Source of the DNA: a virus
Virus record (IMG/VR): IMGVR_UViG_3300036401_000385
Location: 1 to 33,599 of that record
DNA: 33,599 bases
Reading direction: 5' to 3' (one strand)
Shown: positions 50 through 9,638 of the stretch, in pieces
Layout: each line of letters begins with the position of its first letter
Numbering within the stretch: position 1 is the first letter of the stretch
Translations under genes and position numbers: made by a program
The notes under the pieces: model-generated
The model's input: only the letters and a program-made list of their open reading frames with translations
What the model was told of the DNA's origin: nothing
Database searches by the model: none

Positions 50-853
50 CCTACTGCTCTTAAACAGGCGGATGCTACGCTAGGGAGCCTGCCAGAGCCA
101 CCCGAAGGCCTTGCCCCCTCTTACACCACCATCCCCCTGGAGACTGTAGCCCTGGGGCTCCTAAAGCCCCATCCCCGGAACTACCGCCAGCACCCGCCCG
201 ACCAGCTGCTCCATATCATCCGCTCCATCGAGGAGCATGGCGTCTACCGCAACATCGTCGTGGCCGAGGATTACACCATCCTGGCGGGCCACGGCGTCGT
301 CAAGGCGCTGCGCCAGATGGGGCGTGCCGAGGCCTGCGTCTACCGCCTGATGATCTCACCGGATTCCGTCCAGGCATTGAAGCTGCTCACCGGCGACAAC
401 GAGATCGGCCACCTCGCCGAAGTAGACGACCGCCTCTTCACCGAACTGCTCAAGGAAGTAAAGGACCTCGGGGAGCTTGTGGGCACGGGCTACGACGAGA
501 TGATGCTGGCGAACCTGCTCTACGTCACGGCCCCACCGGGCGGTACGGACGCGGATCAGGCCGCGCAGTGGGCCGAGGCAGGAATGCCGGAATTCGCTAA
601 CGGCGCATTGCCTCTCAAGCTGATCGTAAGTTTCCGGACGCAGGCCGACCGCATAGCCTTCGCCGATCAGTTCGGGCTGCGGATTCTCAAGCGGGAAGCG
701 GCGACCTGGGTTACATGGTGGCCGTACCGCGAACAGGAAGATACCTCGGCCTTGCGTTTCGATTCGGCAGAACAAACCAGGATGCCTGCGGGCGGCAGTA
801 ACCACCGGATACCGGCTGGTGAAGGCCAAGCGCCGCCCACCTCGACCCAATGA
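47..853 (+). CDS. ParB/Srx N-terminal domain protein
   Basis: A 268-residue protein that I assign to the ParB-N (ParB/Srx fold) family. The domain covers about residues 26-100: it contains PHPRNYRQHP (41-50), a QLLHIIRSIEEHG helix, and AGHG (80-83), which resembles the nucleotide-binding loop of this fold. The C-terminal part is not recognised. The reading frame is open to TTG at 11, but TTG at 47 is preferred because GGGAGG (35-40) lies 6 bases before it. The gene overlaps the next one by 4 bases (ATGA), so the two are probably translated together. ParB-N proteins next to TET-associated glycosyltransferases are known from phages that modify their DNA bases, which suggests a role in DNA modification or DNA handling. 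The catalytic activity, if any, cannot be read from the sequence. Because the window starts here, an upstream start outside it is possible but less likely. Confidence 0.75.
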   Translation: MPTALKQADATLGSLPEPPEGLAPSYTTIPLETVALGLLKPHPRNYRQHPPDQLLHIIRSIEEHGVYRNIVVAEDYTILAGHGVVKALRQMGRAEACVYRLMISPDSVQALKLLTGDNEIGHLAEVDDRLFTELLKEVKDLGELVGTGYDEMMLANLLYVTAPPGGTDADQAAQWAEAGMPEFANGALPLKLIVSFRTQADRIAFADQFGLRILKREAATWVTWWPYREQEDTSALRFDSAEQTRMPAGGSNHRIPAGEGQAPPTSTQ

Positions 854-1731
854 GCCCGCGCTACCCCATCTACGTCATTAGCAAGGGCCGCGCTGATAAC
901 TGCCTGACGGCCAAGTTCCTGGTGCGCGACGATACGCCCTTCTCGCTCGTCATCGAGCCGCAGGAGGAAGCGAAGTACGCTCATGCCTTCGGCGGCGACG
1001 TGCTGCGTATCTTACCCTTCAGTAACCTCGGCCTCGGTTCCATCCCCGCCCGCAACTGGGTGTGGGAGGATTCCAGGGCGCGCGGCTGCGAGCGGCACTG
1101 GATCATTGACGACAACATATACGACGTCGAGTTCCGCTATCAGGGCAAACGGATCGTGTGCAATTCCGGCCCCGCCCTGGCCGCCGTCGAAGACTTCGTG
1201 GATCGCTATGAGAATATCGCCATCGGCGGGCTAAACTATCACATGTTCGCGCCCGCTGGCCGCAACATCCCCCCGTTCGTCGTCAACTGCCACGTTTACT
1301 CCTGCCTGCTTATCCGCAACGATCTCCCCTACCGCTGGCGCGGACGCTATAACGAAGACACCGACCTCTGTCTCCAGGTGCTCTCGGGCAGCTGGTGTAC
1401 GGTGCTGACGAATGCGTTTCTGATCCACAAGGTTCCCACGATGAAGATGAAGGGCGGTAACACGGCCGAACTCTACCAGGACAACGGGCGATTGAAGATG
1501 GCGCGGTCGCTCGAGCGCATGTGGCCCGGCGTCGTGGAAACGCACCGCAGATTCCACCGTGCGCAGCACGTCATCAAGGACGCCTGGGGGCGGTTTAATA
1601 CGCCGCTGAAACTCAGAGCTGACGCCCCGCCCGCCGATCCCGCCAAGCATGCGCTGGCCTTGCAGCAGGTGAAGGGCATCAAGAGTGAAAGTCTGCGGCA
1701 GTGGTACGCCGCACAACAGGTGAGCGTATGA
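850..1731 (+). CDS. TET-associated-type DNA glycosyltransferase (TAGT family)
   Basis: A 293-residue GT-A-type glycosyltransferase matching, from memory, the TET-associated glycosyltransferase family of phages. These enzymes are thought to add sugars to oxidised 5-methylcytosine in phage DNA. Visible family features are the SKGR segment at the N-terminus (11-14), GSIPARNWVW (63-72), the acidic metal-binding motif WIIDDN (84-89), RGRYNEDTDL (164-173) and MKGGNT (200-205). The length fits the family. The start ATG overlaps the ParB-N gene stop by 4 bases, and its stop overlaps the small terminase start by 4 bases. The gene therefore sits in the late packaging operon, where modification would act on DNA before packaging. 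No TET/JBP dioxygenase or cytosine methyltransferase is visible in the window, so the source of its substrate is open. The identity is fairly secure. The exact sugar and base are unknown. Confidence 0.85.
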   Translation: MSPRYPIYVISKGRADNCLTAKFLVRDDTPFSLVIEPQEEAKYAHAFGGDVLRILPFSNLGLGSIPARNWVWEDSRARGCERHWIIDDNIYDVEFRYQGKRIVCNSGPALAAVEDFVDRYENIAIGGLNYHMFAPAGRNIPPFVVNCHVYSCLLIRNDLPYRWRGRYNEDTDLCLQVLSGSWCTVLTNAFLIHKVPTMKMKGGNTAELYQDNGRLKMARSLERMWPGVVETHRRFHRAQHVIKDAWGRFNTPLKLRADAPPADPAKHALALQQVKGIKSESLRQWYAAQQVSV

Positions 1732-2192
1732 CGGGACGCCCGCCCGTGCCGACTGTCCTGAAGGTCGTGCGCGGAAACCCAGGACACCGCAAACTGAACA
1801 AGAACGAGCCGAAGCCCGTCGGTGATCTGAAGGAACCGCCCGCACATTTCGACGAGGAACTGCGCGAGGTGTGGAACTACGCCATCGAGAACGCGCCCAA
1901 GGGGCTGTTAAAAAAGATCGACTCCGCGGTGCTCGAAACCTGGGTGACGTCGCACGTCCTGCACCGCAAGGCGATAGCCCAGGTGCGGCTGCACGGCATG
2001 CTGGTCAAGCCGCCGAAGAGCGATATCCCGGTCCAGTCGCCCTGGCTGCCCATCGTGAACAAGCAAGCCTTCATCATGCTGCGGGCCGTGGACCACCTGG
2101 GATTCTCGCCGGCAAGCCGCACGCGGATCGCCATCGGTGACGGCGTGCCCAGTACGGCAGGCGGATGGGGCGAGATCGCCGACGCCGGATAA
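1728..2192 (+). CDS. terS: Terminase small subunit (P27 family)
   Basis: A 154-residue protein of the phage P27-type small terminase family, which recognises phage DNA and presents it to the large subunit. The N-terminus has the typical pattern of a short basic start followed by GRPP..P, LKVVRGNPG.R, LN.NEP.P. Helical segments follow, with LVKPPKSDIPVQSPWLPIVNK-like and FSPASRTRIA elements that are usual near the C-terminus of the family. The ATG at 1728 overlaps the glycosyltransferase stop (ATGA). An in-frame upstream start exists at 1701 but would lie within the previous gene and lacks support. The large terminase follows after 6 bases, the usual order. Confidence 0.9.
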   Translation: MTGRPPVPTVLKVVRGNPGHRKLNKNEPKPVGDLKEPPAHFDEELREVWNYAIENAPKGLLKKIDSAVLETWVTSHVLHRKAIAQVRLHGMLVKPPKSDIPVQSPWLPIVNKQAFIMLRAVDHLGFSPASRTRIAIGDGVPSTAGGWGEIADAG

Positions 2193-2198
2193 ACTCAC

Positions 2199-3905
2199 AT
2201 GCCAACCCTCGCTAAAACGTGCCCCAACGTGGCGCGGGGGACGGAGTACGCCCAGGCCGTCGTAAAGGGCAGCGTGCTGGCCTGTACCTGGGTGCGCCTC
2301 GCCTGCCAGCGGCATCTAGAAGACCTGGACCGCTGGCAGGCGAAGGACTCGCCCTTCTACTTCGACCAGAAGGCCGCCGAGCGCGTGCTCGAAGTAGTCC
2401 AACTCTTTCCGCACATCCACGGGCACTGGGCGAAACAGCAGATGCGGATCACGCTCGAAGGTTGGCAGTGCTTTATCGTGATGTGCGTCTTTGGCTGGAA
2501 GGCCAGATCCACCGGGGCGCGGCGTTTCCGCGTAGCCTATATCGAAGTACCCAGGAAGAACGCCAAGAGTACCCTGACCAGCGCCATCGGGCTTTATCTG
2601 CTGGCCTGCGACGGCGAGCACGGCGGGCATATCGTCAGCGCGGCCAACACGCAGAACCAGGCCAAACTTTTATTCACCGACGCGCAGTGGATGGCACGCA
2701 AGGAGGTGGGCTTCCGCGCCCGCTTCAGCGTGGAAGTCCTGGCGCACACCATCGTGCAGATGGAGACGCAGTCCAAGTTCGAGGCCTTGAGCGCGGAGCA
2801 CTCGAACCTGGACGGGCTGAATCTTCACGGGGCGCTGATCGACGAGTTGCACGCCCACCCCACGCGCGGCCTGTGGGACGTGCTCGCAACGGCTACGGGC
2901 TCGCGTATCCAGCCGCTCATCTGGGCCATCACTACGGCGGGCCTAAACCGCGCCAGCGTGTGCTACGACCAGCACAACTATGTGATCGATATCCTCAGCA
3001 AGCGGGCCGAGGACGACGCCTACTTCGGCATCATCTACACCACCGATGACGGCGACGATCCGTGGGCCGAGACCACCTGGACGAAGGCCAACCCCAACTA
3101 CGGCGTGAGCGTGCGCCCGGAAGGGTTGAAGCTGGACGCCAAACGCGCCATGCAGATGCCGAGCGAGCAGGCCTCGTTTCTGACGAAGCACTTGAATGTG
3201 TGGATCAACGCGGCGATGATGTGGCTGCCTGCCGGTGCCTGGGACAAGTGCGGCGACGGGGCGCTCGACATCGAAGACTTCGCCGGCGAGGCCTGTTACC
3301 TCGGCATCGACCTTGCGCTGCGCAGTGATATGGCGGCGCTGGTGGTTGCTTTCCCGCCTACGGAGGCGCGGCCGCACTGGGTCGTCTTCGGCTTCTACTA
3401 CCTGCCAGAGGAGACCGTCAGCCGCGCCGAGAACGCTCACTATCAGGCCTGGGAAACCATGGGCCGACTCACCACCACGCCGGGGAATGTCACCGACTTC
3501 GACTACATCCTCAACGCGTTGGCCGATCTGTGCACGCGCTTCGGCGTCCGCGAGATTGCGCTCGATCCGTTCGACGCGGGTCCACTGCTGGTGAATATTG
3601 AAAAGGCGGGCCTGCCCAAGCCTGTTGAGGTCCGCCAGACCGCGCCGAACATGCACCCGGCGATGGTGGAGCTCGAAGGCCTCGTCCTGTCGAAGAAGAT
3701 CCGCCACGACGCCAACCCGATTCTCTCCTGGATGTTCTCCAACGTGAAGGTGGAAAAGTCGGGCGATCTGATGAAGCCGACCAAGGATGGCGACGAGAAA
3801 AAAATTGATGGCGTGGTCTGCCTGCTGATGTGTCTAAACCGCTGGATGAAACAGCAGCCGGGCGAGAAGCCCGACTACGAGAACCGAGGCTTATGGGCAA
3901 TCTGA
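2199..3905 (+). CDS. terL: Terminase large subunit (Terminase_1 / HK97-like)
   Basis: A 568-residue packaging motor ATPase and nuclease. The ATPase part has a Walker A-type segment PRKNAKST (118-125) in the form typical of this family, and a Walker B segment ALIDELH (212-218). The C-terminal RNase H-like nuclease shows LGIDLALRSD (368-377), with acidic residues at 371 and 377, and IALDPFDAG (453-461) with D456. A further Asp near 544, in KKIDGV, fits the third metal ligand. Length and motif order fit an intact enzyme. It would cut and pump DNA through the portal encoded next. Its 3' end overlaps the portal start by 13 bases. Confidence 0.95.
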   Translation: MPTLAKTCPNVARGTEYAQAVVKGSVLACTWVRLACQRHLEDLDRWQAKDSPFYFDQKAAERVLEVVQLFPHIHGHWAKQQMRITLEGWQCFIVMCVFGWKARSTGARRFRVAYIEVPRKNAKSTLTSAIGLYLLACDGEHGGHIVSAANTQNQAKLLFTDAQWMARKEVGFRARFSVEVLAHTIVQMETQSKFEALSAEHSNLDGLNLHGALIDELHAHPTRGLWDVLATATGSRIQPLIWAITTAGLNRASVCYDQHNYVIDILSKRAEDDAYFGIIYTTDDGDDPWAETTWTKANPNYGVSVRPEGLKLDAKRAMQMPSEQASFLTKHLNVWINAAMMWLPAGAWDKCGDGALDIEDFAGEACYLGIDLALRSDMAALVVAFPPTEARPHWVVFGFYYLPEETVSRAENAHYQAWETMGRLTTTPGNVTDFDYILNALADLCTRFGVREIALDPFDAGPLLVNIEKAGLPKPVEVRQTAPNMHPAMVELEGLVLSKKIRHDANPILSWMFSNVKVEKSGDLMKPTKDGDEKKIDGVVCLLMCLNRWMKQQPGEKPDYENRGLWAI

Positions 3906-5137
3906 ACACTGCTGCGGCGCGAGCCTGGAAGGCCATCACGCAGGCCGTCTCGCGCACCGTTGGGAGCGTGACGCGGATCGGTAACCGGACTGACGGCGGC
4001 ATGATTAACACCCTGCCCGGTGCGGGGCTTACCAACCCCACGGCCAATACCGCGCTGCAATCCGCGGCGGTCTGGGCATGCTGCCGCCTGATCGCCAATT
4101 CAATTGCCTCGCTGCCCACCAGCGTCCTGCAACAGACTACGGTGGGCAAGGTAAAGGCCGTCAACTCGCCGCTCTACCGCGTGCTTTGCCAGTCGCCCAA
4201 CCCGATGATGACGAGTTCGCAGTGGATGCAGCCCACCATGATGAGCCTGCTTTTGTGGGGCAATGCCTTCACCTGGATCGACCGCGTGGCCGGCGAAGTC
4301 ATGGGCCTTTGGCCGCTGAATGCCTCGCGCGTTCAGATCCTGCTCAAGGCCGACGGCACGCTTGACTATTTCTATAGCGACCTGACCGGCAAGACGCATC
4401 ACTTCTCGGGCGAGGAGTTGATTCACTTCCGGCTGTTCACGCTGGACGGCTACGTCGGCTTGCCGGTGCTCGACTACCACCGCATGACGCTGGACTTCGA
4501 AGCCGCGACCACAGCCTATGCCTACTCGATCTATCAGAATGGCGGGCAACCGAGCGGCGTGCTGGAGTATCCGACTGCGCTGAAGGAAGAACAGGTCAAG
4601 CGCATCCGCCAGTCGTGGCGCGAAACCCACGGCGGGCCGGGCAACGCGGGACAGATCTGTATTCTCGAAGACGGCATGAAGTACACGCCGCTTGCCATCC
4701 CGCTCAGCCAGCTGAACTATATCGAGGAAAAGAAATTTTCCGTCGAGCAGATCGCGCGTATCTTCGGCGTGCCGCCGCACCTGATCGGCGCGATGGACAA
4801 GCCCACCTACGCAAGCGTGGAACAGCAGTCGATTGAGTTCGTTCGCTATACCATCAACCCCTACGTGGTGAGCCTGGAGCAGTCGATCACCAAGGCGCTG
4901 CTCGAATTTCCCTATAGCTACAAGATGAACCTCAACGGTTTCGAGCGCAGCGATATCCGCACCCGCTACCTGAGCTACGCCACGGCGCGGCAGTGGGGCT
5001 GGTTGAGCGCGAACGATATCCGCGATCTGGAGGATTTGGTCCGCATCGACGGCGGCGACGAATACATGGTGCCGATGAACATGGCCCCGGCAGACGGCGG
5101 CGAGCCGCTCGTGCCGGTGCCGCAGCAGGGAGCTTGA
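3893..5137 (+). CDS. Portal protein (HK97 family)
   Basis: A 414-residue protein with the HK97-type portal pattern: an early AAVWACCRLIANSIASLP helix segment, the PNPMMT...W/L segment, LWGNAF, the SGEELIHFR stretch, and FGVPPHLIGAMD near residue 300. Portals form the dodecameric channel at one head vertex that binds terminase and then the connector. ATG at 3893 is preferred over the longer in-frame start at 3830 because GAGG lies about 5 bases upstream and the N-terminus then fits the family. The gene overlaps the terminase end by 13 bases. The C-terminal tail is Gly/Pro rich and variable. It is followed after 5 bases by the prohead protease. Confidence 0.93.
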   Translation: MGNLNTAAARAWKAITQAVSRTVGSVTRIGNRTDGGMINTLPGAGLTNPTANTALQSAAVWACCRLIANSIASLPTSVLQQTTVGKVKAVNSPLYRVLCQSPNPMMTSSQWMQPTMMSLLLWGNAFTWIDRVAGEVMGLWPLNASRVQILLKADGTLDYFYSDLTGKTHHFSGEELIHFRLFTLDGYVGLPVLDYHRMTLDFEAATTAYAYSIYQNGGQPSGVLEYPTALKEEQVKRIRQSWRETHGGPGNAGQICILEDGMKYTPLAIPLSQLNYIEEKKFSVEQIARIFGVPPHLIGAMDKPTYASVEQQSIEFVRYTINPYVVSLEQSITKALLEFPYSYKMNLNGFERSDIRTRYLSYATARQWGWLSANDIRDLEDLVRIDGGDEYMVPMNMAPADGGEPLVPVPQQGA

Positions 5138-5142
5138 AGGTT

Positions 5143-5775
5143 ATGGAACGCAAAGCGTGTGCGCTGATTGAACTCAAAGCGGAAGGGAACACCGGCCAGT
5201 TCTCCGGTTACGCCTCAACCTATAACGTGGATCTGACGGGCGACCAGATTCTGCCAGGGGCCTTCGCGCAGTCGATCAAGGATCGCAAGGCCAAGGTACC
5301 GATTCTCTACAACCACGAGGACTGGATCGGCTTCTCCACCGGGTTAGCCGAGGACGGCAAAGGCCTCACGCTCCAGGGCGAACTGGCGCTGGATAACTCC
5401 GTCGCCAAAAACACCTACGCGCTGTTGCAGAAGGCCTCGGCGCTCGACTTCCGTGTGGGTATGAGTATCGGATTCATGGCGAAGGACTGGGACTGGGACG
5501 GCAACATCCGCACGCTGAAAGAGATCGACTTGTGGGAAGTCTCTATTACGCCGTTCCCGGCGCAGCCGAAGGCCTTCGTGGCCGACGTGAAAACCTTCCG
5601 CGATTTAGAGAAGTACCTGCGGGAAGTAGAGTGCTTCTCGAAGTCGGATGCTCGGCGTATCATGCGCCTGTTCACCGACTACAACCAGTCTTCGGGTGGG
5701 ATGCTCGACGACGCCTCTTCGCCGCGCACGCGGCGCTTACTGGCGGCACTCGCCGCCGAACAGGGAGCAGCCTAA
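5143..5775 (+). CDS. Prohead maturation protease (HK97 family, U35/S78)
   Basis: A 210-residue serine protease that processes the capsid protein during head maturation. The fold shows FSGYAS near residue 20, the putative catalytic His58 in YNHED, and Ser108 in VGMSIGF. An acidic residue follows in IDLWEVSITPFPA, the typical C-terminal core motif. The longer frame begins at 4993 inside the portal gene, but ATG at 5143 is supported by GAAGG just upstream and by where the family normally begins. It ends directly before the major capsid ATG, whose N-terminal coiled-coil segment is the expected substrate. Confidence 0.92.
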   Translation: MERKACALIELKAEGNTGQFSGYASTYNVDLTGDQILPGAFAQSIKDRKAKVPILYNHEDWIGFSTGLAEDGKGLTLQGELALDNSVAKNTYALLQKASALDFRVGMSIGFMAKDWDWDGNIRTLKEIDLWEVSITPFPAQPKAFVADVKTFRDLEKYLREVECFSKSDARRIMRLFTDYNQSSGGMLDDASSPRTRRLLAALAAEQGAA

Positions 5776-7104
5776 ATGGCAACGACAACCCCGGATAAAG
5801 AAGACCTGGAACTGATTCGCCAGTTGCGGGTGGAGTGGAAAAAGGATTTCGACGCCGCGCTGGTGCAGGCCAAGACGGATGGCTTTGTGGACCCCGAGGC
5901 CCGCAGTAAAGTTACCAAGGTGGAAACCGAACTCAATACCAAAACAGACGCGGTAATTGCAGCGACCAACAAACGCTGCGACGAACTGGAAACTAAGGTA
6001 AAGCTGATCGGTGAGCGCGGCTCGCGGCCACCCGGCGCAGGCGATGACGGTTCGCTGATTAAAAGCGTCGGCACCAAGTTCGTGGAGAGCGAGCAGTTCA
6101 AGAACTGCCAGTGGAGCGGCCGCTTTCAGGTCCAGGCGGGTCTCACCAAAACGCGCATCAAAGATATCCTGGCCCGCAAGGCGGTAACGACCATCGCCGA
6201 GGGCGGCGCCACCACGATCACCCCGCCCGTGGGCGCGTATCCGATCTTCCCCCGTCGCGTGGGCCTGATCTCGCAGCAGTACGCACCGCTCACCATGCGT
6301 GATCTGGTAGACGTAATTCCGCTTGACGGCACCAACGCGGTCGAGTACGTGACGGAAAGCTGGACGAACGCCGCTGACTACCAGATCCTGGAAGGCGACA
6401 AGAAAGCCCAGTCAGGGGTGACCTATACCGATAACACCGCAGTGGTGCGCACTATCGCGCACTACGTGAAGGTGTCGCGGCAGATGGTGTCGGACGTGTC
6501 CTTCATCATCGCTACCATCGAAAACCGCCTTGCTCTCTTCGTGCTTCTCAAAGAAGACGCCGAGATCCTGTTCGGCAGCAACGCGGCGGGCCACCTGTGG
6601 GGAATTATGCCCCAGGCCACGGCAGCTGCAGTCTACTATCCGGGGCCAGCGCCGACGACCGATACTATGCTCGACCAGTTGAATGCGGCCGAGACATACA
6701 TCGAGAACCAGTTTTATTTCCCGACTGCTTTCGTCCTGAACCCGACTAACTGGTTTCACATCGAAAGTCTGAAGACGACCTTCGGCCAATACCTGCTCCC
6801 GACCTCGCCGCTGAGCGAAGGACCACCCCGCGTGTGGGGCCTGCCGGTGATTACCACGCCCGCCATGACGTTGAACGACTACCTGTGCGGTGCCTTCCCC
6901 GGTAATGCGGCGTTGTTCGACCGCGAGACGGTCAACGTGGAAATGGCCTTCCAGAACGAGGACGACTTCGTGCGTAACTTAGTCACGCTGCGCGCCGAGG
7001 AGCGCGTTGCCTTTGCGGTGTTCGTCCCCAAGGCCTTCGCCAAGGGTCCGTTCGTTACTCCCGCAGTGGGGCTTGAAAGCGAACCGGTGCGGAAGGGCAA
7101 ATGA
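5776..7104 (+). CDS. Major capsid protein (HK97 fold) with N-terminal scaffold segment
   Basis: A 442-residue HK97-fold capsid protein. Residues 1-80 are rich in charged and helical sequence and resemble the delta/scaffold domain that the protease removes. The mature part starts near the GSRPPGAG linker. Typical features are the G.H/L.GI segment after the E-loop and P domains, NPTNW, a LWG/VWGLPV segment near residue 352, and the C-terminal block QNEDDFVRNLVTLRAEERVA, followed by a P.AFAKG.F end. The start is immediately after the protease stop codon. A second, shorter HK97-like protein at 7919-8845 shares this C-terminal block almost exactly, so there are two capsid-like genes. Confidence 0.93.
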   Translation: MATTTPDKEDLELIRQLRVEWKKDFDAALVQAKTDGFVDPEARSKVTKVETELNTKTDAVIAATNKRCDELETKVKLIGERGSRPPGAGDDGSLIKSVGTKFVESEQFKNCQWSGRFQVQAGLTKTRIKDILARKAVTTIAEGGATTITPPVGAYPIFPRRVGLISQQYAPLTMRDLVDVIPLDGTNAVEYVTESWTNAADYQILEGDKKAQSGVTYTDNTAVVRTIAHYVKVSRQMVSDVSFIIATIENRLALFVLLKEDAEILFGSNAAGHLWGIMPQATAAAVYYPGPAPTTDTMLDQLNAAETYIENQFYFPTAFVLNPTNWFHIESLKTTFGQYLLPTSPLSEGPPRVWGLPVITTPAMTLNDYLCGAFPGNAALFDRETVNVEMAFQNEDDFVRNLVTLRAEERVAFAVFVPKAFAKGPFVTPAVGLESEPVRKGK

Positions 7105-7265
7105 CGATTCAGTTCATCAAGGACTATACGGGCACCGACGGCAGACGGCGTCGCAAGGGGGAGGTTGCTGTCGTCGGGGAACGGGTAGCCGATGAACTCG
7201 TGCGGGCGGGCGTTGCTAAAGAGCGCCCGCCCGTTGGGCCTGTCGAGCGTAAGGAGGCGGTGTGA
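7101..7265 (+). CDS. Small protein between capsid and connector genes
   Basis: A 54-residue basic protein beginning MTIQFIKDYTG, with a run of Arg/Lys (RRRRKG) and a C-terminus rich in charged residues. Its ATG overlaps the capsid stop by 4 bases, and its stop region overlaps the next start (GTG at 7262), so three genes are linked head to tail. Small proteins of this type, with a V/I.F...Y....G.....KG..V.V pattern, commonly follow capsid genes in siphophages. Their role is unknown to me; a head-stabilising or connector-associated part is a guess. Confidence 0.7.
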   Translation: MTIQFIKDYTGTDGRRRRKGEVAVVGERVADELVRAGVAKERPPVGPVERKEAV

Positions 7266-7399
7266 CCGTAACTCTGCACGGCATTTTGTTGATCCTGGCG
7301 TTTCTGTGCTTCGTGCTGCAGGCCATCGGGGTACAGTCGCGCATCAACCTCAACGGCGCAGGTCTCGCGCTGTGGGTGCTTTCACTCCTGATCGTATGA
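7262..7399 (+). CDS. Tiny hydrophobic protein, two possible membrane segments
   Basis: A 45-residue reading frame with a GTG start at 7262, preceded by AAGGAGG (7252-7258). It overlaps the previous gene's TGA (GTGTGA), and its own TGA overlaps the ATG of the next gene at 7396. The product has a hydrophobic stretch at about residues 5-23 (ILLILAFLCFVLQA) and a second at 33-45 (GLALWVLSLLIV). The good ribosome binding site and the exact coupling to both neighbours argue that it is real. Function unknown: a membrane peptide with a lysis or assembly role is possible, but nothing specific supports either. Confidence 0.6.
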   Translation: MTVTLHGILLILAFLCFVLQAIGVQSRINLNGAGLALWVLSLLIV

Positions 7400-7905
7400 G
7401 CGACCAGCCGCCTATCCTGCCGCCCGTACTGCCGCATGTGCGTATCCCGACGCAGCAGCTGAAGGATGCGGGCGGTCCACCGGCCGCGCTGGAAGACCAG
7501 GACAACTTCGTGCGCAACCTCGGCACCGTGCTGGGCGCTGGTCCTGGCGGCTTCGATCTGGGTAGTGTGGTTGCCCCGCCTGTGACGCCTTCGCCATCGG
7601 CCTCCAGCCGCGATCCGGTGCTGACGGTGGACGAGATCAAGATGCATGTCCACATCGAACCCGCCCAGACCGCCGAGGATACCTACCTGATGCAGCTCGA
7701 GATGGCGGCGCGGCTGCACGCCGAAAACTTCCTGCGCTATCAGATCGACGCGACGGTGGGCGAGAACATCAAGCAGGCGCTCTTGTTTCTGATCGCGCTG
7801 TGGTACCGCAACCGTGAGCAGATGATCGAGGGCAAGTGGGGTTCGATCCCCGCCGGGTTCCAGGCGCTGCTCGGCCTGGAGCGCGACTACCCTACCTACA
7901 CGTAA
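7396..7905 (+). CDS. Head-tail connector protein (gp6-like)
   Basis: A 169-residue protein. Residues from about 75 on (LTVDEIKMHVHIEP, AEDTYLMQLEMAARLHAENF, then IKQALLFLIALWYRNRE) match the gp6-like connector fold that forms the ring below the portal. The first 70 residues are a Pro/Gly-rich extension not usual in the family. Within it the segment DNFVRNLGTV resembles the DDFVRNLVT block at the C-terminus of both capsid-like proteins here. The ATG at 7396 overlaps the tiny hydrophobic gene by 4 bases. A longer in-frame start at 7192 would overlap two genes and is not preferred. Confidence 0.82.
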   Translation: MSDQPPILPPVLPHVRIPTQQLKDAGGPPAALEDQDNFVRNLGTVLGAGPGGFDLGSVVAPPVTPSPSASSRDPVLTVDEIKMHVHIEPAQTAEDTYLMQLEMAARLHAENFLRYQIDATVGENIKQALLFLIALWYRNREQMIEGKWGSIPAGFQALLGLERDYPTYT

Positions 7906-7918
7906 ATTGGAGGACCGT

Positions 7919-8845
7919 ATGAAACTCTCACCCGGAGCGCAGATCACCAACGCGCTGTTGGAACACCCCGAGCGCCGGCGCTTTTCGCTCAGCCTGGAAC
8001 GTAAGGCGGGGCCGATTCTCGTCTATCCTTCGACTGCCGAGACGGTCCCCGCCGTTGCCCCGGGCCCGACGATCCCCTATCGGCTGCGTTCCCTGATCGC
8101 GCCAGGGACGACGGTTGGTTCCGGTATTCTCTACGCGCGGGAGACTTCCTTCACATCGAGTCCTATCGTGCCAACCGCCGCAGGCGGACTGAAGCCCGCT
8201 GCCGATCTCACCTATGACATCCAGCTACAGCCTGTCGTCACCGTGCCCGCGTATCTCAAGATGCCCGCGCAGTACTGGGAAGACTTCAGCATGTTTCAAA
8301 GCTGGATCGACGCGCGGATGATGTACGGGCTGGCCGAGGCCGAGGAAAAGCAGCTGCTCAACGGCAACGGCGTTGCTCCGAACCTGCAGGGATTCATGCT
8401 GGTTGCCATCGCGGTAACGAGCGTGGCGGGCAGCGGCGGCGTGGCCCTGCTGGATAACGTGGCGGCGGGTATCGGCGCATTGTACACGCGGGGGTATATC
8501 GCCACGGGCATCGTGCTCAACCCCGGCGACTGGGGCGCGGCGCTGCAGATTAAGTCCACCGGGGGCGGCTACCTGATCGGCGCGCCGGGGCTGATTACCA
8601 ACCCGCTCAGCCTGTGGGGAATTCCCGTCGTGCTCAGCAAGGCTATGGCGAGCGGCAACTATCTGGTCGGGCAGTTCGACCCCTATAGCCAGATCTTCGA
8701 CCGCGACGACGCCGCGCTGGAAGTGGCCGATCAGAACGAGGACGACTTCGTGCGCAATCTGGTGACGGTCCGCGCCGAGGAGCGGCTGGCCTCCGCCATC
8801 TATCAGCCTGCGGCCTTTGCCAAGGGCACCTTCACCATGCCGTAA
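7919..8845 (+). CDS. Second HK97-fold capsid-like protein
   Basis: A 308-residue protein with the later features of an HK97 capsid subunit: a YWEDF...I..RM...L..AEEKQLLNG helix, LNPGDW, a LWGIPV segment, and a C-terminal block QNEDDFVRNLVTVRAEERLA then P.AFAKG.F. That block is nearly identical to the end of the first capsid protein (5776-7104). It lacks the N-terminal scaffold region. ATG at 7919 is chosen because GGAGGA (7909-7914) lies 4 bases before it; the TTG at 7907 overlaps that site. It sits between connector genes rather than next to the protease. It may be a second coat subunit, a decoration or vertex protein, or a recombination relic. The rest of the sequence is clearly diverged, so it is not a recent copy. 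Confidence 0.85.
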   Translation: MKLSPGAQITNALLEHPERRRFSLSLERKAGPILVYPSTAETVPAVAPGPTIPYRLRSLIAPGTTVGSGILYARETSFTSSPIVPTAAGGLKPAADLTYDIQLQPVVTVPAYLKMPAQYWEDFSMFQSWIDARMMYGLAEAEEKQLLNGNGVAPNLQGFMLVAIAVTSVAGSGGVALLDNVAAGIGALYTRGYIATGIVLNPGDWGAALQIKSTGGGYLIGAPGLITNPLSLWGIPVVLSKAMASGNYLVGQFDPYSQIFDRDDAALEVADQNEDDFVRNLVTVRAEERLASAIYQPAAFAKGTFTMP

Positions 8846-9183
8846 TGCCGAGCATCACGACGCCGGAACTCGACGCAGGTAAGCTGGACCGGCTGGTCAC
8901 GCTGTTGAAGCCGATCTATAAAGACGTCTACCAGGATGAGATTTCCGACTGGGAAGTAGTTGCCCAGGTCTGGGCTGCGGTGATGCCGAGCGTGGGCGTC
9001 GAGACGGATACGGGCGGCCGCACTCAGGAAGTAGTGACCACCACCATTCAGATCCGCTACCGCGCCGATATCGACGCGCGGTGGCGCATCCAGGATGGCC
9101 CCGTGGTCTACCAGATCAAGGGCATGCTGGATATCCTGCGGCGGCACGTACAGTGGCAACTGAATTGTTTGGAGGTGGAATGA
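8845..9183 (+). CDS. Head closure protein (head-tail joining family)
   Basis: A 112-residue protein of the phage head-tail joining family (SPP1 gp16 / HK97 gp7-like). Visible family features are an N-terminal GKLDRLVTLLKP strand, W..V..VWAAVMP, the ...TTTIQIRYRADID-x-RWRI strand pair and the final ...Y.I.G..D....R..W. segment. These proteins close the connector channel after packaging. Its ATG overlaps the stop of the second capsid gene by 1 base (TAATG) and its stop overlaps the next start by 4 bases. Confidence 0.83.
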   Translation: MPSITTPELDAGKLDRLVTLLKPIYKDVYQDEISDWEVVAQVWAAVMPSVGVETDTGGRTQEVVTTTIQIRYRADIDARWRIQDGPVVYQIKGMLDILRRHVQWQLNCLEVE

Positions 9184-9638
9184 CACCGAGTCCGCGTGAA
9201 ACCTTAGACCCACTGATCAAGGCGATCTTCGACGCGATGGAAGCTTACATGGCGGCCAATTCGCTGCCCAGTGTGAACTGCACGGCCGCGCAATCCGGCG
9301 CGGGCATTAGCGAGAGTCTCTCGGCTACGGAGTCGGACGGTGATTCGTTCACCTTCCAATTCTTTACCAAGGGGGTAATGACAACCATCACCCCTGCGGC
9401 GGTAAGCCTGGGCCCGAGCGGCACGCAGCAGTTCACCGCTATTGCTACCAACCCGGATGGCTCCGCCGTGGCTTCCGCCGCCTTTACCTGGACTCTTACC
9501 AGCGGCCCCGGCACGCTGGATACTGCGGGCCTCTATACCGCGCCCGCCACGATTGCGCAGGCTACCAACGCCACGATCCGCGCCACGCTCACGGGCGGGG
9601 AGTCCTGGGGTCAGGTGATTATCACGGTACACCCATGA
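9180..9638 (+). CDS. Ig-like domain protein in the head-tail joining module
   Basis: A 152-residue protein with an N-terminal part of unknown type (DPLIKAIFDAMEAYMA and a short beta-rich stretch) and a C-terminal bacterial Ig-like domain. The domain follows the classic pattern ITPAAVSLGPSGTQQFTA, a W in FTWTLTSGPGTLD and GLYTAPATI. Such domains decorate virions and bind weakly to cell-surface sugars in other phages. The gene is coupled to both neighbours by 4-base overlaps, so it belongs to the structural operon. It may be a decoration or a head-tail joining protein; its position in the virion cannot be told from sequence. Confidence 0.7.
   Translation: MTPSPRETLDPLIKAIFDAMEAYMAANSLPSVNCTAAQSGAGISESLSATESDGDSFTFQFFTKGVMTTITPAAVSLGPSGTQQFTAIATNPDGSAVASAAFTWTLTSGPGTLDTAGLYTAPATIAQATNATIRATLTGGESWGQVIITVHP

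Follow-up and report, generated by a model that had tools for sequence, protein, structure and literature searches.

Two HK97-type capsid genes flanking a connector gene

The window corresponds to an entire virus record of the IMG/VR type (33,599 bases) from an uncultured tailed phage, and its head module carries two genes for capsid proteins of the HK97 type. MCP1, a full-length HK97-type major capsid protein (MCP) of 442 amino acids (aa) with an N-terminal scaffold domain at approximately residues 1-136, is encoded at 5776..7104 (+) and matches PF05065 (E 3e-40) and phrog_10 (E 2e-56). MCP2, the second capsid protein, comprises 308 aa without the coiled-coil tower and is encoded at 7919..8845 (+; PF05065 E 3e-31, phrog_10 E 1e-37), starting with the ATG at 7919 behind a GGAGG-type ribosome site and with its stop codon ending at 8845. 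Between both genes lies Ad1 (7396..7905, +), a gp6-like head-tail adaptor with an N-terminal extension (PF05135 E 9e-7, phrog_40 E 4e-16). The two HK97 capsid-type genes flanking a connector gene, as described in an original prediction made from the sequence of 5776-8845, are thus confirmed, and all figures given there, including the lengths of 442 and 308 residues, are right.

In a BLASTP comparison of the pair, MCP1 and MCP2 share 34% identity over 260 columns with an E value of 7e-41, a similarity far beyond chance. Compared to the curated cut-off of 24.2 bits, the Phage_capsid family PF05065 scores 109 bits for MCP2 and 138.7 bits for MCP1, and both proteins match phrog_10 "major head protein". 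In a Pfam scan of MCP2 at E values up to 1, PF05065 was the sole family matched.

Based on approximate domain limits, identity between both proteins amounts to 61% in the P-loop and P-domain strand and 47% at the extreme C-terminus, but only to 20-31% in the N-arm, E-loop, spine, and A domain. The C-terminal block had been predicted to be nearly the same in a pair that is diverged elsewhere, and this holds; the block is the P-loop. It is conserved across the whole HK97/D3 group. Gene conversion was considered as the cause of its similarity and rejected, since the identity of the P-loop DNA within the genome (0.71) is near the value between genomes (0.68). Additionally, a stretch of the A domain (HK97 approximately 289-296) is deleted in six out of ten MCP2s, whereas it is ungapped in every MCP1 compared. 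The contrast between the P-loop and the remaining, mostly 20-31% identical segments is as expected if contacts between capsomers must match and contacts within capsomers need not.

Crosslink and contact residues

The crosslink of HK97 joins the E-loop residue K169 and the P-loop residue N356 (PMC5701804). The equivalent pair of phage D3 is K178 and N367, and at the local threefold axis the D3 residues N360, F364, and R372 make up a triad of contacts (PMC12749128). The counterpart of the crosslink lysine is K92 in MCP2 (8192..8194, +), which is invariant in 52 out of 52 alignment rows, and K210 in MCP1 (6403..6405, +), which is invariant in the MCP1 alignment as well as in the 52-row alignment. 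The P-loop block of MCP2, NEDDFVRNLVTVRAEER (residues 273-289; 8735..8785, +), contains the triad N273/F277/R285, the crosslink asparagine N280, and E287. In case of MCP1, the block NEDDFVRNLVTLRAEER (residues 394-410; 6955..7005, +) contains N394/F398/R406, N401, and E408, and counterparts of all four D3 residues N360, F364, N367, and R372 are therefore found in both proteins.

Glutamate E363 of HK97 has a role in crosslinking as well, and its counterparts are E287 of MCP2 and E408 of MCP1. The Lys, Asn, and Glu of the chainmail residue set (HK97 169/356/363) are consequently present in MCP2 (K92/N280/E287) and in MCP1 (K210/N401/E408). Throughout the 52-sequence alignment, the crosslink lysine and the glutamate are invariant and the asparagine occurs in at least 90% of the sequences.

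N-terminal region and predicted fold

The scaffold domain of D3 consists of a coiled-coil tower of 70-80 residues, followed by the P-domain associated region (PDAR, residues 81-113), which is composed of a helix, a linker, and a strand and is cleaved between A113 and I114 (PMC12749128). MCP2 orthologs begin approximately 30 residues ahead of the capsid domain, compared to approximately 136 in MCP1, and roughly 80-100 tower residues are missing in 11 out of 11 of them. The start of MCP2 nearly coincides with the start of the PDAR, and residues 1-30 (7919..8008, +) align collinearly to the PDAR of canonical MCPs, with a helix at residues 5-15 in the model of the protein. These residues probably represent a PDAR, ending in an invariant RKA that is aligned where D3 has RSA/I and MCP1 has RKA/V and that is a likely protease site. 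Judged by alignment and model, MCP2 looks like a PDAR with a putative protease site and a complete capsid domain, from which the tower only is absent. The view that the second protein is devoid of the scaffold region thus applies to the coiled-coil tower, but not to the C-terminal part of the scaffold domain, which was probably kept.

An AlphaFold2 model of MCP2 calculated from the 52-row alignment reached a predicted local distance difference test (pLDDT) score of 85.8 and a predicted template modelling score of 0.76; a model based on eight orthologs only (pLDDT 36.9) was not used. Superposition on HK97 gp5 (2ft1 chain G) yielded a Z score of 27.2 and a root-mean-square deviation of 2.5 Å over 259 residues, and the top Foldseek matches are the capsid proteins of phiXacJX1, D3, and HK97. 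According to the model, the fold of MCP2 is a complete HK97 type with spine helix, P domain, A domain, and E-loop. Structure prediction had been set beforehand as a test able to refute a second capsid protein; an intact capsid fold was found, so no refutation resulted. Among the HK97 chains that match best, chain G is frequent, which was not used as evidence for a penton position because those rows are close in score.

Distribution among related phages

Viral contigs were searched with MCP1 and MCP2, followed by tblastn over the fetched loci. The phage of the window recurs in several contigs from other metagenome samples (L003, L004, and L005/L011). Orthologs of MCP2 with 60-72% identity were found in L006, L007/L017, L008/L009, L013, L014/L033, L015, L016, L030/L031, and L032, adding up to about ten lineages, and MCP1 is also present wherever an MCP2-bearing contig covers the MCP1 region. 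Relatives of MCP1 that are 50-83% identical occur in 12 viral loci. The gene pair, for which a survey of related genomes had been proposed, accordingly recurs in related phages, where it is under purifying selection (see below).

The order Ad1-Hc1-MCP2-Ig, comprising the head-closure gene Hc1 and a gene for an immunoglobulin (Ig)-like protein, was observed in every MCP2-bearing relative, and Ad1-MCP2-Hc1 is restricted to the phage of the window. A position between connector genes, as originally described, is therefore true for the window genome (Ad1 and Hc1), but the orthologs of other lineages are situated after Hc1. MCP2 is absent from L018, L020, L023, L024, L025, and L026, in which the gene directly after Hc1 is that of the Ig-like protein or the following tail gene. 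Searches of whole records gave one capsid gene in MCP2-free contigs (42.2 and 37.7 kb) and two in MCP2-bearing contigs (35.6-41.0 kb). Due to the existence of relatives with MCP1 only, MCP2 is an optional cassette, and the differing gene order of the window indicates that in this lineage the cassette is shifted by one gene. A function of MCP2 in the service of larger genomes was considered and rejected, since the sizes overlap (35.6-41.0 kb with and 37.7-42.2 kb without MCP2, the contigs not necessarily being complete).

Among phage records, MCP2 matched 982 places in 982 records and MCP1 matched 975 places in 975 records, none of which contains two such genes. In bacteria, a single scan covering 84,980 species genomes yielded no close MCP2 orthologs (at least 60% identity), nor were any found in plasmids. 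Viral and bacterial contigs contain relatives with approximately 40% identity; these occur as single capsid genes and, with few exceptions, have the full length. In the literature, for which coverage is incomplete, we found D3, HK97, and T4 cases but no report of a two-capsid-gene phage of the HK97/D3 type.

Selection and origin

All orthologs of MCP2 are open without stop codons and encode 292-308 aa. The ratio of nonsynonymous to synonymous substitution rates (dN/dS) among them is 0.15-0.45, and the least saturated pair, L007 and L013, shows a dN/dS of 0.17 at a dS of 0.54, which is within the MCP1 range. Judging from these rates, MCP2 is maintained by purifying selection.

A tree was calculated for the MCP1s and MCP2s together with named capsid proteins. 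It places the MCP2s in a single clade (support 100/100), the branch of which has a length of 1.48 changes per column, apart from the MCP1s (100/99) and from HK97, D3, phiL7, and others (98/97). A recent duplication of MCP1 was ruled out on the basis of this own clade on a long, fully supported branch; as far as the tree can tell, MCP2 arose long ago, either as a paralog or by acquisition. The trees of MCP1 and MCP2 are in strongly supported conflict, with the window grouping with L007 for MCP1 and L007 with L013 for MCP2. Compared to L031, the MCP2 of the window is 65% identical and its MCP1 46%. MCP2 is thus exchanged between phages with very different MCP1s, and this is more easily explained by homomeric than by mixed capsomers. 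The whole head module is mosaic, as indicated by the trees of portal, TerL, and Hc1.

Peptide of Ad1 resembling the capsid P-loop

Residues 34-45 of Ad1, DQDNFVRNLGTV (7495..7530, +), are located in the N-terminal extension and are very like the HK97 P-loop EDRDNFVKNMLT, with a score of 26.6 bits against the position-specific scoring matrix of the capsid motif. Across all six frames of the window, only the two MCPs score higher with this profile, and none of the 20,000 random controls reaches the score of the peptide. The peptide (EDxDNFVRNLxT), including the counterpart of the crosslink asparagine, was found in 14 out of 14 Ad1s of the group with or without MCP2, that is, in the window and in L006-L008, L013-L016, L018, L020, and L023-L026. 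It was not seen in Ad1 of HK97, D3, and phiL7, or of the Mesorhizobium, Nostoc, Stenotrophomonas, and PseuP_224 phages. A contact of the connector with the shell at the portal vertex may be mediated by this peptide.

Head module and adjacent genes

The head module is arranged in the order TerL, portal, protease, MCP1, two very small open reading frames (ORFs), Ad1, MCP2, Hc1, Ig-like protein, gp10-like protein, tail terminator, and tail tube. It is opened by TerL at 2199-3905, followed by the portal protein gene (3830..5137, +; PF04860 E 7e-101, phrog_12) and the prohead (head maturation) protease gene (5143..5775, +; PF04586 E 8e-25, phrog_80), for which the ATG at 5143 was derived from the frame. 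Downstream of MCP1, an ORF of 54 aa (7101..7265, +) shows a weak match to phrog_2616/829; its position is like that of the small gpFI-like protein of named phages. The second ORF between MCP1 and Ad1 (7262-7399) has a GTG start and encodes 45 residues with one likely membrane helix, and a similar short ORF is also present in L007 and L013. The Hc1 head-closure protein is encoded at 8845..9183 (+; PF05521 E 1e-17, phrog_25), and its start codon abuts the stop codon of MCP2 (TAATG). The adjacent gene for an Ig-like-domain protein (9174-9638) has no PHROG match; in nearly all members of the group, it adjoins Hc1 or MCP2.

Upstream of the terminase gene, 11-853 encodes a ParB-like partition/nuclease or methyltransferase-associated domain. 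The product of 850-1731 matches phrog_842 (glucosyl-HMC glucosyltransferase type, E 6e-39), and this similarity suggests a possible sugar modification of the phage DNA or of another acceptor. In the relative L017, the TerL gene (652-3474) is open through an insertion of approximately 1.1 kb in the Walker A region, which begins after PRKNAK and ends with MVPTHN right before STLTS. Judging by these borders and the open frame, the insertion looks like an intein.

Proposed function of MCP2

It is likely that MCP2 is a co-assembled subunit of the lattice, and on balance we favour a second HK97/D3-type capsid subunit that is functional and works as proposed in the following. MCP2 would be translated together with the head-connector genes and would enter the prohead without a coiled-coil tower of its own, relying on the scaffold domains of MCP1 (and the portal) for assembly. 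The phage protease would cut off the short N-terminal peptide at the RKA site, and on expansion K92 of the E-loop and N280 of the P-loop would be crosslinked to neighbouring MCP1 capsomers. MCP2 would be a minor subunit that makes up entire capsomers alone; these would most likely be the vertex pentons, comparable to the role of T4 gp24 for gp23. The analysis itself covers homology, an intact predicted fold, conserved crosslink and contact residues, purifying selection, and optional presence; presence in virions, processing, crosslinking, and location are what we infer.

The original suggestion of a minor coat or vertex protein or of mixed capsids is partly supported, in that it fits the conserved crosslink and threefold-contact residues; MCP2 would be a putative virion component. 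The pattern suggests that MCP2 has to fit into the lattice between capsomers and to mature like MCP1 and that it need not fit inside MCP1 capsomers, and it has no tower; these properties are best explained by special, homomeric capsomers, for which pentons suggest themselves as obvious candidates. That MCP2 forms pentons specifically is a tentative assignment with less than an even chance. The same reserve applies to the whole proposal, in which one group of phages of the HK97/D3 branch would have evolved or acquired a second capsid protein without the tower. This protein would make up capsomers alone, with pentons as the likeliest, would be covalently crosslinked into the MCP1 chainmail and handed on among phages as a single-gene cassette, and would be an independent counterpart of T4 gp24.

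Several observations weigh against this proposal. Close relatives manage with MCP1 alone and MCP2 is wholly absent from them; therefore neither shells nor pentons generally depend on MCP2. The trees of MCP1 and MCP2 conflict, and close co-evolution of both proteins is hence not indicated. The crosslink asparagine is replaced by Asp in two MCP2 orthologs (L007 and L014). The assignment of the PDAR depends on collinearity and a predicted helix; the profile match of the MCP2 N-terminus alone is not significant (P 0.2), and the strand of the PDAR was not predicted. Since canonical capsid proteins were part of the AlphaFold2 alignment, the model shows compatibility with the full HK97 fold and is no independent discovery of it; the sequence homology of MCP2 to capsid proteins is independent of the model. 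Finally, the location of MCP2 in the shell is itself something we infer.

As an alternative, MCP2 could be placed at random or in mixed capsomers with MCP1, e.g., altering the stability or size of the shell. The residues of the lattice contacts are all conserved in MCP2, which speaks for such a placement, and a tower-less protein might need MCP1 neighbours in the same capsomer for scaffolding. Nevertheless, mixed capsomers are unlikely considering the divergence of the A domain and E-loop to 20-31% identity, the A-domain segment that is deleted in the majority of the MCP2s but in none of the MCP1s compared, and the exchange of MCP2 among genomes with very different MCP1s. A role as structural component of the portal vertex or neck, i.e., as a capsid-fold collar, would agree with the invariable location of MCP2 within or next to the Ad1/Hc1 connector genes and with the P-loop-like peptide of Ad1 in this phage group. 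Since this peptide also occurs in phages without MCP2, and the kept E-loop lysine, P-loop asparagine, and threefold triad point to lattice contacts, we regard this role as improbable.

Slightly more remote is an interference or decoy factor that, e.g., poisons the shells of competitors or misleads capsid-sensing host defences. By reasoning only, dominant interference is conceivable for a capsid protein that has no scaffold but intact contact surfaces, and the gene is optional and exchangeable; but it is encoded inside the late head module, its sequence gives no pointer to such a role, and the kept putative protease site would go unexplained. A decaying duplicate or an assembly artefact, to which the reduced length compared to MCP1 and the optional presence might be attributed, has a negligible probability: the pair was read in several contigs of different metagenome samples and in about ten lineages, dN/dS is well below 1 without any stop codon, and the phylogeny gives an ancient branch with a support of 100/100.

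Comparison with known capsid systems

The closest named systems to the proposed second capsid subunit are the MCPs of HK97 (gp5), Pseudomonas phage D3, and the Xanthomonas phages phiL7 and phiXacJX1, which share the fold of MCP2, the E-loop lysine, and the P-loop asparagine and glutamate, and are approximately 38-44% identical to MCP2 over the capsid domain. In contrast to the tower-less MCP2, which is the second capsid gene of its genome, these phages possess a single capsid gene, the product of which has the entire N-terminal scaffold domain. HK97 and D3 serve as models for shells whose hexamers and pentamers are filled by one protein that brings along its scaffold. A natural, selected second capsid protein that lacks the tower and whose presence differs between close relatives would make it possible to test the need for a scaffold domain in each subunit. 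Furthermore, it would make the origin of a vertex-specialised capsid protein and the sharing of one covalent chainmail by two proteins testable, and may help to build shells with distinct, addressable capsomers.

In T4, changes in gp23 can bypass gp24, and close relatives that naturally lack MCP2 are reminiscent of this situation. The relatives with MCP1 only (L018, L020, and L023-L026) have the same order of head genes and MCP1s of approximately 50-66% identity, and differ by the lack of MCP2. If MCP2 indeed forms pentons, the need for a gp24-like protein would vary naturally between close relatives. T4 gp24 is a relative of gp23 confined to the vertices (PMC9958956, PMC5694885), and its propeptide comprises 10 residues compared to 65 in gp23 (PMC9958956). 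Similar to MCP2, gp24 is the second HK97-fold capsid protein of its genome with a propeptide much shorter than that of the main capsid protein. Unlike MCP2, which matches PF05065 only, it belongs to a different capsid sequence family, and it is situated at the vertices, a location for which MCP2 is a candidate only. Thus it is tempting to speculate that MCP2 would represent an independent case within the HK97/D3 branch, apart from T4 gp24.

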